NCBI GenBank assembly: GCA_014332815.1 | Contig: JACSZT010000005.1 | Span: forward strand, 1-64,000 | Reading direction: 5' to 3' | DNA length: 64,000 nucleotides | Source of the DNA: Weissella confusa | Lineage (GTDB): Bacteria > Bacillota > Bacilli > Lactobacillales > Lactobacillaceae | Shown: positions 1-59,539 of the stretch, piece after piece | How positions within the stretch are numbered: position 1 is the stretch's first letter | Layout: each line of letters begins with the position of its first letter | Made by a program: the position numbers and the translations under genes | The notes under the pieces: model-generated | Told to the model about the DNA's origin: nothing | Databases searched by the model: none | Seen by the model: the letters and a program-made list of their open reading frames with translations, nothing else

Positions 1-139
1 TGTCAAGATTATGGACAGGCTTTTTTGGCACCGAGAGGTACCGCACCCCGAAAATTTTTCAAAACCCGGATTTTAGCTTAAAACGGCGTGATTTCTGGGT
101 GTTTTTGCAGGTGGAACAGGGCCGAGCCCTACCGGTGAG

Positions 140-535
140 TTCGACAATCTGCTTGTATACTTCTGCCTGAGCTTCAACAATCTTAGCCTGCAACTGTGAG
201 TCGTTACGTAGGTTATCGATTGCATGGTCACCGTTGATAGCAACCTGACCACCATGCTTGTACTTACGTCCTTTTGCGGTGTACATCGGAAACTTCGTAC
301 CATTCTCAATGAAATTAGCAATATAAGCCTGGCGCTGTTCCAAAAGCCATCTCGTTGAATGTGTTACCACCAAATGTCGTAATGTCTGAGTTACTCTCAG
401 TGATCAGCACTTGGGTGACATTCTTATTGTTGATGACTTCCTCAGGGATCGCGTAGAAGTATACCTGCCAATCGGGGAACACTGAATGAACCACGTTATC
501 GATTTCTTCCACTGGTGTCATTGGTTATTCCTCCT
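140..535 (-). CDS. phage neck/tail-completion protein, HK97 gp10-like (C-terminal part)
   Basis: Only the C-terminal part is visible: block 140-337 gives a segment starting near QAYIANFIENGT and ending KQIV, and block 338-535 supplies ERRNNQ and a TGA (519-521 area) that overlaps the next ATG as ATGA. The text resembles the end of HK97 gp10-type proteins, which join the head-tail connector to the tail, and its place just before a DUF806 gene and the major tail gene fits. The N-terminal part lies left of the window. Family assignment is moderate because no strong motif is visible. Confidence 0.5.
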
Positions 536-931
536 TGTTAAGCTCGTCAAGTGTTAGTGTCTTGTTTACTTCGATGTTTTTAATCATCAGTTGCCCATCT
601 GTTTGACTTATATCCAAGTACCGTGGCTGACTATCCGTAATGTTCCAGTAGGCGCTCCCTAAAGCCTTGTACAACGTTATCTCTTTACCAATAAGGTTGT
701 CTTCGTCAAGCCCGTAGAAGACCTGCAAACGGTCCTGAAATACCAGTAATATTTGCGCTCTTGGCACCAAGCATTGCTGTGGTTACGGGGAATAGACCGT
801 CTGCTGACAATCCTGCGTCACCCCTCAATAGTTCTCCAGTTTCCTTATCACGCAATGCCAACGTAATAAGCTTCAATCCTGCAATTGCCATATATTAATT
901 CCTTTCAATAAAAAATGAGCCAACCGTTATT
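338..931 (-). CDS. DUF806 family phage tail-completion protein
   Basis: Start ATG at 521, preceded by AAGGAGG; stop at 927 in block 734-931. The restored protein is about 127 aa, starts [13 protein letters not shown] and ends LDELNK. Length, start sequence and position between the gp10-like gene and the major tail gene match the DUF806 family of Lactobacillales siphophages, thought to work in head-tail joining. The reading frame runs cleanly over two block joints. No catalytic role is expected. Confidence 0.7.
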
Positions 932-1525
932 CTGTTTTGCGTCTCAATCGTCATAGCAACTCGTGGGCGGTCACCTTGTAGGAATCCACCCTTGCCATCT
1001 GAGATACGTCCCAACAACTTTTGCTTAATGTCGAATGGTAGGTCATTAAAGTCCAAAGCAACTGATGGCTCACCCTTCGTTTGTGTTTGGTCAACCTTAG
1101 AGTTGTTACCATATACCGGCGTACCATTATTGGCTGCCTTGTCAAACTTAGCATCGATGTCTGAGTAAACCTTCATGGCTTCATTGTTCCATGCTTCAAC
1201 ACCAAATGAAGTGAACGTCAAGGCGTCATCAACACGGACTTCGTTGTTCGTATCAGTTTGTACGTTGGCTGCAGTCTCTTGTACCTCACCGTTAGCAAAT
1301 CCGAACCAAATTGACTTAGTGCGCTTGTTAAATGAAATTTTCATCGTTATATCCTTTCTTGGGTACAAAAAAAGGAGCTCACCTGATTATTCAAGTGAAC
1401 CCCCGTTCATATTGGGCTTCTCACCCCGTTTGAGCCTCTTTATTGTCGTGGCTGTAGGACAATTGGGACGACCTTATACGCCACTGGGTGTGGCAGTTCC
1501 CGCAGTACCAAATACATCAGCTTGC
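734..1525 (-). CDS. phage major tail (tube) protein
   Basis: Start ATG at 891 with AAAGGAATTAATAT upstream; stop TAA at 1474. Restored length 201 aa, usual for siphophage tail-tube proteins. Features in order: [16 protein letters not shown] start, [11 protein letters not shown] and DIKQKLLGR in the middle, then [11 protein letters not shown] and FDKA, and a short Ala/Thr/Gly/Pro-rich end. It forms the tail tube around the tape measure. A hairpin terminator follows it (1370-1412), which would make it the most abundant tail transcript. In displayed order its three parts are in the wrong sequence. Confidence 0.85.
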
Positions 1526-57559: not shown

Positions 57560-58351
57560 TAACAAAAGCTTCAAGTAACGGTAATAAATTGGCAAACGCT
57601 TAGCGGTCGCGCGGGGGATGTCATGTTCTGCCATGTCAACCTACCTCATTTTCTAAAAAATTTTATTTTCATGCTATTTCACAAACAAAAAAACGTTTGT
57701 GAACTCTCTATCCTTATTTATAGTAACACATTCCCTGCTTTATGTGAACTAAATAACGACTCCGACAAGGGCAACTGATGCCAAAGTGTCTTGGTTCAAA
57801 ATTTCACCGAAGAACGTCATCAATGCCTTAACGTCGTACCCGTAACCACGCTTTCCCAATGCACCAAAGTATGAGAAATCACGACGAATCGTCGCAGCGT
57901 CAAACTTAACAGCATCAGACAATTCGTTTGATGAAACGCGAGTCGTCCCCGCATCCACTGGTGCTGGGACCGTCAAAATTGCCACATCAATGCGTTGATC
58001 AGAAATTTGCTTCTCCAAATCGTCCATGCTGTATACAGGGACACCAGCTTGAATCGTGTTCACGATATCTTCGTTAATATCAAAAGCTGCAGAAATGCGG
58101 GCGTTTGAGCTTTGGTGGAAGTTAAAGTTCAACAAAGCTTGTCCCAAATTACCTGGAATGGGTGACTTCTCGTGTCATTATTCAGCCTCTGAAGCGCCAA
58201 AGTTATTGATGAAGTACAACAACGTTTGCAATTCGTTCGTCAAATCAACGTTTTGTACGCGGACATCACTAGGCACATCCAAACGCAATGGCGTGAAGTT
58301 CAAAATTCCGTGTACCCCGGCCTTAGCCAAACGGTTAGCCAATTCTTGGGC
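57560..58351 (-). CDS. rex: redox-sensing transcriptional repressor Rex
   Basis: Start ATG at 57634; stop at 58178; 214 aa restored. [19 protein letters not shown] (winged helix), [37 protein letters not shown] (DNA binding), [18 protein letters not shown] Rossmann part over the joint, [13 protein letters not shown] near the end. Senses NADH/NAD+. Upstream is an inverted repeat TTCACAAAC/GTTTGTGAA (57678-57702); its half-sites are in the opposite order to the usual Rex operator, so I do not call it one. Confidence 0.93.
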
Positions 58352-58549
58352 TGGGGCCCATTTTACAAACAGTCGTGATGGTTAGGCACGCCTATTTGAG
58401 GCGTTATCATTTTAGAGGTCTTAGACAATAATAACGTCTGTAACATATGAGAAATGCTAAGTATGAACTACTTAACATATATCATTCTACCAAAACGACT
58501 TTCACAAAGTAAGCGTTGTCATGTTTCAAAATGAAATAAAAAGCCACCC
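58352..58549 (-). ncRNA. possible small RNA or leader between rex and srtA
   Basis: In restored order this 300-bp gap starts with a terminator for rex (AGTCACCC...GGGTGGCTTTTT), then TTTGTGAAAGTCG and GGTAGAATGATATATG (promoter-like), a run of about 130 nt with hairpins (AACGCCTCAAATAGGCGT), and a second terminator ATGGGCC...GGCCCATCTTTTTATT formed across the next joint, just before the sortase ribosome site. No ORF of note. It could be an independent small RNA or an attenuator. No known RNA family recognised. Confidence 0.4.
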
Positions 58550-59539
58550 GTTTAACGTAAAGTTGGCAATCTCGTTATGAAAAATCAAGCCCAACGAAAT
58601 TATCAAAATCAGTAGTACACCCAGCCATTTCAGCCATGCGAATTTCTTCTTCTTTTTCTTTTCACTCATATCAACGTCACCCCTCGTTAATTTACTGATA
58701 TCGTACCACCAAATTAATAAAAAGATGGGCCTCCGATATGAATATATGCCGTTTGAAATTGGTACCGAAATACCAACTTCCGGCACAGCGACAAAGCCAA
58801 TAAAATTAATCTTGTCTGAATTCAAGCGCGCTTGTAGCACCTGCTGCGCTGTTAAAGCGCCCACTTTCTGCCAATCGTAGTTCGCCTGTTTCTTTTCTTT
58901 CTGCCCGGCCTTGATCGATTGCTTTGTAACTTGTGGTTCGAATGATTTGTAGCGATAAACCTTGTTCATATCAGTCAGATAAATGTCTTGGCCCACTTTT
59001 CCTTTGTAGTAAAGTGGCGAGAACAGCAAATCACGGCCTGAGTCACCTGGAATAAAGTGAGAAGCTAAGGCATAATTGCCTTCCCCCATCACTTCATCAG
59101 GAAACATCGTCCCAGCACCTAGCGACAAGTTTAAATCAGTCGTACGGTTATCCGTAGTGAATGCCTTTTGAATGTCTTTTGGCGTTTCTGCCCAAGTCTT
59201 TACCCCTTGTAGCTCACCACGCATCATAATACGGCCACGTTCGGCCGTGTAATCACACGTGATCAACGTGACCAGCTTCTTACCTTCAACTGGGTAAACC
59301 CAATCGACATCGGTTGGCTGAATCACCTTGAAGTCCACTGCTTTAAAGTCCGCCATAACTAACTATGTCTATTACTACAACAATAAGCGGATAAAAACAA
59401 AACTGGCCGGAAGAACTCCGGTTCAATACCGAAATCTTTCCGACCAGTTAGCCGCTTAAACGTCACTCCAATTTTCGGGGTTCAGTTCATGGCACCAAAT
59501 ACGGCGCCAATGGCTTTTTTTGAGTCGTTACTTAATCCA
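58550..59539 (-). CDS. srtA: class A sortase
   Basis: Start ATG at 58669 after CGAGGGGTGACGTTGAT; stop TAA at 59528; 241 aa restored. Lys-rich N-terminus and one membrane helix (WLGVLLILIISLGLIF), INFIGFVAVPEVGISVPI, YALASHFIPGD (catalytic His), LVTLITCDYTAERGRIMMRGEL (Cys and Arg). Anchors LPXTG proteins to peptidoglycan. The end ...NRWIK comes from the last inverted block and helps locate the end of the scrambled region. Confidence 0.92.
59342..59527 (-). mobile_element. possible insertion-sequence end and terminator at the contig junction
   Basis: After the sortase stop, restored order gives TGAACTGAACCCCGAAAATTGG, which resembles the terminal repeats of IS3/IS150-type elements, then a hairpin AACTGGTCGGAA...TTCCGGCCAGTT with a T-run (displayed 59400-59450). 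No transposase is present. A contig end inside a repeated IS would explain the change in data orientation here. Confidence 0.35.

Follow-up and report, generated by a model that had tools for sequence, protein, structure and literature searches.

A 198-base lattice of in-place inversions in a Weissella confusa contig points to chunk-wise reverse complementing by software

How could some 59.5 kb of a bacterial contig come to consist of adjacent inverted segments of one length? The window considered here, i.e., the whole stretch of DNA that was analysed, comprises 64,000 bases and forms the first part of contig C20 (103,993 bp) in a Weissella confusa genome of 24 contigs and 2,294,552 bp in total. 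A preliminary description of the window had read it as a strict lattice of reverse-complemented 198-bp blocks and had proposed that a FASTA file reverse-complemented line by line was the cause. The strict 198-base lattice is confirmed here as real and as a data-processing artefact. The scrambling almost certainly stems from a chunk-wise reverse-complement error in software, so that the genes were shuffled in a file rather than in the bacterium. The features on which this reading is built are collected in Table 1.

Table 1. Coordinates of the damaged part, its edges and the stretch used for restoration (positions in the window; k counts chunks).
Position	Strand	Feature	Evidence or remark
1..139	.	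Short last chunk of contig X, flipped in full	139/139 bases = start of contig C17
140..59539	.	300 chunks of 198: unmoved, uncomplemented base 140+198k, then 197 bases flipped in place	216/300 blocks mapped to G013, 123 tested per base, prophage part by viral contigs
141+198k to 337+198k		Flipped span within each chunk	197 bases reverse-complemented in place
37562..46669	.	fab/acc housekeeping stretch, 46 blocks	Used for restoration test
59343..59489	.	147-bp repeat, dispersed, where contig X originally began	100% copies elsewhere
59540..64000	.	Start of intact part Y (59,540-103,993 of C20), still prophage	Phage-contig matches up to 3.4 kb

The lattice becomes visible when the whole window is aligned to G013, a near relative in the genus and a different strain from the window genome. 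Between 15,783 and 59,348 the window matched contig C9 of G013 in 216 pieces, all of them on the minus strand (216/216) and in rising order. Piece starts lay within 8 bases of a lattice point in 210/216 cases (8.6% expected) and ends in 209/216, and the breakpoints thus follow the lattice as the preliminary description had anticipated. Adjacent blocks followed each other with a gap of 0 in 206 of 214 pairs; among the remaining eight, one reflects a 14,112-base insertion in G013 and the others were off by 1 to 11. The 14,112 extra bases lie at about 55,043-69,251 of C9, where the window passes from the block at about 35,580 to that at about 35,781. The longest C9 piece left of 59,540 measured 216 bases, and C20 69,481-103,956 matched this same contig in far longer pieces, the longest being 14,477 bases. 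No match in C9 was found for blocks 0-78 (prophage), 86-89 and 299.

Comparison with further genomes gave the same picture. Of 20 further genomes in the genus, 17 were matched by a 5-kb fab/acc query (window 41,000-46,000), which makes 18 of 21 when the genome itself is counted. Among the matches listed for those 17 genomes, all were at most 210 bases long and most edges fell at or near lattice points; among the matches listed, none came from the other three of the 20. Furthermore, the damaged part matched 34 viral contigs in 376 pieces, the longest of 220 bases, and 277 of these pieces start within 8 bases of the lattice. The 99 of the 376 pieces that start off the lattice are taken to be alignments ending early in diverged relatives. 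A 198-bp lattice over 59.5 kb is hence borne out by the G013 breakpoints, by the short matches across the genus and by the viral contigs.

If blocks have been inverted in place, flipping them back should lengthen the alignment. Within the fab/acc stretch of Table 1, restoration merged 46 pieces (longest 204 bases) into a single match of 9,107 bases. The relative has 13 open reading frames of at least 120 residues there, and full-length counterparts were found for 0/13 in the raw and for 11/13 in the restored sequence. In the restoration controls, chunk sizes of 197 and 199 gave one and two pieces (longest 9,215 and 9,026 bases), and phases of 1, 2, 3, 5, 10, 33, 196 and 197 gave one or two pieces each. 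These sizes and small phase shifts do nearly as well because BLAST aligns across errors this short. The remaining sizes between 190 and 206 left 21-42 pieces, phases of 66, 99 and 132 left 44-78, and sizes of 60, 70, 80, 99 and 396 left 46-102, none over 727 bases. The restoration controls being coarse, it is the per-base mismatch profile that fixes the unit length.

This profile was obtained from 123 ungapped blocks of C20 with at least 93% identity over at least 185 bases, other blocks having been dropped beforehand. Mismatch was about 3.5% inside the blocks versus 101/123 at the first base of the block, which is near the chance level. In 116 of the 123 blocks (about 31 expected by chance), this first base is complementary to the one absent from the opposite end, meaning that the base at 140+198k was neither moved nor complemented. 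The only other relation that fits 116/123 is the identical one read from the neighbouring block, and the rest of those tried fit 0-39/123. Seven of the 123 blocks miss the rule, where about four are expected from the 3.5% divergence. Moreover, the rule fits 77 of 81 pieces (four miss) from seven stretches of C11, C14, C15, C18, C19 and C24, counting pieces of exactly 197 bases and dropping other lengths. The period of 198 in the preliminary description therefore stands but its unit does not: instead of a whole 198-bp block, 197 bases are reverse-complemented and one base per chunk stays fixed. Within the lattice, an unmoved base before the 197 and one after them fit alike (77/81 each), and only the contig ends separate the two. 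An untouched terminal character, as found in C20 and in these six other contigs, is the pattern that results when a reverse-complement routine treats the last character of each chunk as a newline.

The same period explains why the damage is inconspicuous at the protein level. In the displayed sequence, open frames are seen for the fab, acc, purB-like and phosphoglucomutase-like proteins and for others, and they stay open because 198 bases are 66 codons. In several of ten displayed proteins scanned, including fab, acc, purB-like and phosphoglucomutase-like ones, Pfam domains occur in pieces of about 66 residues and in the wrong order. This agrees with the earlier view that the frames are open yet chimeric. 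An ordinary gene caller would miss the damage for the same arithmetic reason.

The edges of the damaged part carry information on its origin. The chunks of C20 count leftwards from 59,539 (59,539 = 300 x 198 + 139); C17 starts exactly at window position 139, and C13 ends exactly at 59,540, where Y starts. A repeat common to the window start, C17, L170, L172 and L188 continues into block 1 via the unmoved base 140, as predicted by the 197+1 rule. One base that seemed to be missing where block 1 meets the remainder is accounted for by this unmoved base. The sequence of window 1-139 is shared in differing surroundings, namely at the C17 start and in the phage contigs L170:1-119, L172:10287-10425 and L188:9331-9421, and three of these four outside copies sit at a contig or locus end. 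At the other edge, the 147-base repeat has 100% copies in C12 (twice), C19, C22 and C23 and a 125-base copy in C18; the C22 copy and the 125-base C18 copy lie at contig ends. An Rfam search of the window gave no match for this repeat or elsewhere in the window. Next to the intact part of C20, the block contents are on the correct strand and the block order is reversed, which is the expected residue of a reverse complement that failed before joining. Most likely, X was a separate 59,539-bp contig ending at repeats, and its damage preceded its joining to Y. Where the short chunk lies suggests that the joined contig was turned round afterwards. That the damage in C20 stops at an old contig end argues for damage probably per contig, before scaffolding.

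A prophage at window 1-15,782 and C20 59,540-69,480 spans the join of X and Y and is absent from G013 at about 34.74 kb of C9. In a related phage contig, IMGVR_UViG_2854472580_000003, the two sides of the join lie about 12 kb apart, suggesting that the join probably omits part of the prophage. Twenty viral loci around a gene of Y gave no match to the damaged part, remainder included, and thus lend no support to a direct connection of X and Y. Phage records had no match to 59,540-64,000, and 64,001-69,480 had no match in G013 C9.

The damage is not confined to C20. By DNA comparison it was found in stretches of C11, C12, C14, C15, C18, C19, C20 and C24. The survey sampled 22 stretches of 12 kb from larger contigs at positions that were not random. 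Eight of the 22 were compared by DNA, seven being damaged and one intact (C12 100-112 kb, with one 12-kb match and five short ones). Judged by Pfam alone, eight of the 14 other stretches look intact and three look damaged, if weakly so (L150, L153, L156), and L149, L152 and L155 gave no answer; this part covered 30 proteins, one of them from the small contig C8. Because the DNA-tested stretches were mostly picked after Pfam fragments had been seen, these counts give no genome-wide fraction. Pfam matches longer than one chunk indicate that C8, C13, C16, C17, C21, C22 and C23 contain intact stretches, and by DNA comparison C12 holds both damaged and intact segments.

The phase of the lattice is anchored to contigs. 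It starts at contig base 1 in C14, C11, C24 and C15, and in C15 (77,717 bp), where both ends were compared, the base-1 phase persists at 58-76.6 kb; the reference offered no match to the final 1.1 kb of C15. For C12 180-192 kb, a manual reading gives a phase consistent with a count that begins at the contig's end, and the phases of C18 and C19 fit neither contig end. The unit is constant with one phase per original contig, as seen in C20, at both ends of C15 and in one stretch each of the others. Counting starts with base 1 of the original contig (C15, C14, C11, C24) and places the short chunk last, which in C20 lies at the far end of X.

Any explanation has to account for the 197+1 pattern, for its anchoring and for single contigs being damaged in one part and intact in another. 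Reverse complementing a FASTA file line by line does so once it is refined to a 198-character chunk with an untouched terminal character, and the original proposal is to that extent supported. Contig X would have been due for reverse complementing before being joined to Y. The program may have taken in 198 characters per read, possibly through a 199-byte buffer, and would have mistaken the last one for a newline. The other 197 characters would then have been reverse-complemented and the chunks output in their original order, and the last chunk, consisting of 139 bases and a real newline, would have been flipped completely. The damaged X would next have been joined to Y and the joined contig later turned round to give C20. 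At least seven other contigs would have been hit by the same error, in whole or in part.

Compared with the intact part, the blocks of C20 have their contents on the right strand and their order reversed, and this could also be left by a wrapped file whose uncomplemented lines were output from last to first, as Unix tac does. Such a reversal is highly improbable. Under that model one base per chunk would be complemented and displaced. In addition, the C15 lattice runs from base 1 although 77,717 is no multiple of 198, whereas reversed lines would begin with the short one. In its plain form, line-order reversal is ruled out by the unmoved bases together with the base-1 start of the C15 lattice. 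A living cell that inverted its DNA in hundreds of adjacent segments is more improbable still, to a degree that makes this reading negligible. Only the open displayed frames speak in its favour, and these are themselves a consequence of the 66-codon unit. The joints show no base motif (0.275 bits over 31 positions, a level reached by 18 of 200 random offsets), inverted arms are absent (identity 0.249 vs 0.253), and the seen copies of essential genes, for alanyl-/glycyl-tRNA synthetase and a gyrase/topoisomerase B-type protein, are cut. Moreover, we know of no cellular cause that would leave an uncomplemented base between flipped segments.

It is also unlikely, though less so, that the public record is free of the damage and that whoever holds the data set introduced it or planted it for testing. 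The damaged segment of C20 is bounded exactly by old assembly ends (C13 end, C17 start), and C12 combines intact and damaged segments; anyone starting from the finished contigs could scarcely have been aware of such joins. The recorded completeness of 66.51% resembles that of a damaged deposit. At 2.29 Mb, a normal size, it compares with 95-100% in 20 relatives, which fits chunk-wise damage to the genome. The completeness value, like the coincidence with old contig ends, thus speaks for a deposited public record that itself carries the damage.

With a chunk-wise software error as the preferred reading, there is no biology in the lattice and its relevance is one of data quality. In the damaged parts, any gene content, completeness, average identity or protein families derived from this genome would be wrong. 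We consider it somewhat probable that the deposited public genome is damaged and has fed reference databases numerous long chimeric proteins whose 66-residue pieces run in reversed order, and that assemblies from the same pipeline may share the 198-base fingerprint. This fingerprint, i.e., the period of 198, one unmoved base and a phase counted from contig starts, can be used for finding damaged assemblies. The finding also takes a spectacular-looking pattern off the list of biological candidates.

Among known systems, invertons and shufflons are cases of site-specific DNA inversion and resemble the lattice in that segments are inverted against a relative. Here, however, neither inverted repeats nor a core motif was found at the unit ends in the joints tested, the units are of uniform length with one unmoved base each, and hundreds of them lie side by side over several contigs. 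Chunk-wise or line-wise reverse-complement mistakes are a known kind of programming error, and in a literature search the titles and opening lines of abstracts showed no description of it among the papers listed. The lattice shares with such a mistake the fixed-length chunks that are flipped while their order is kept and the last character that is treated as a newline. It differs from the usual case in its unusual chunk length, 198 characters being no usual FASTA width, and in affecting only some of the sampled contigs or parts of contigs.
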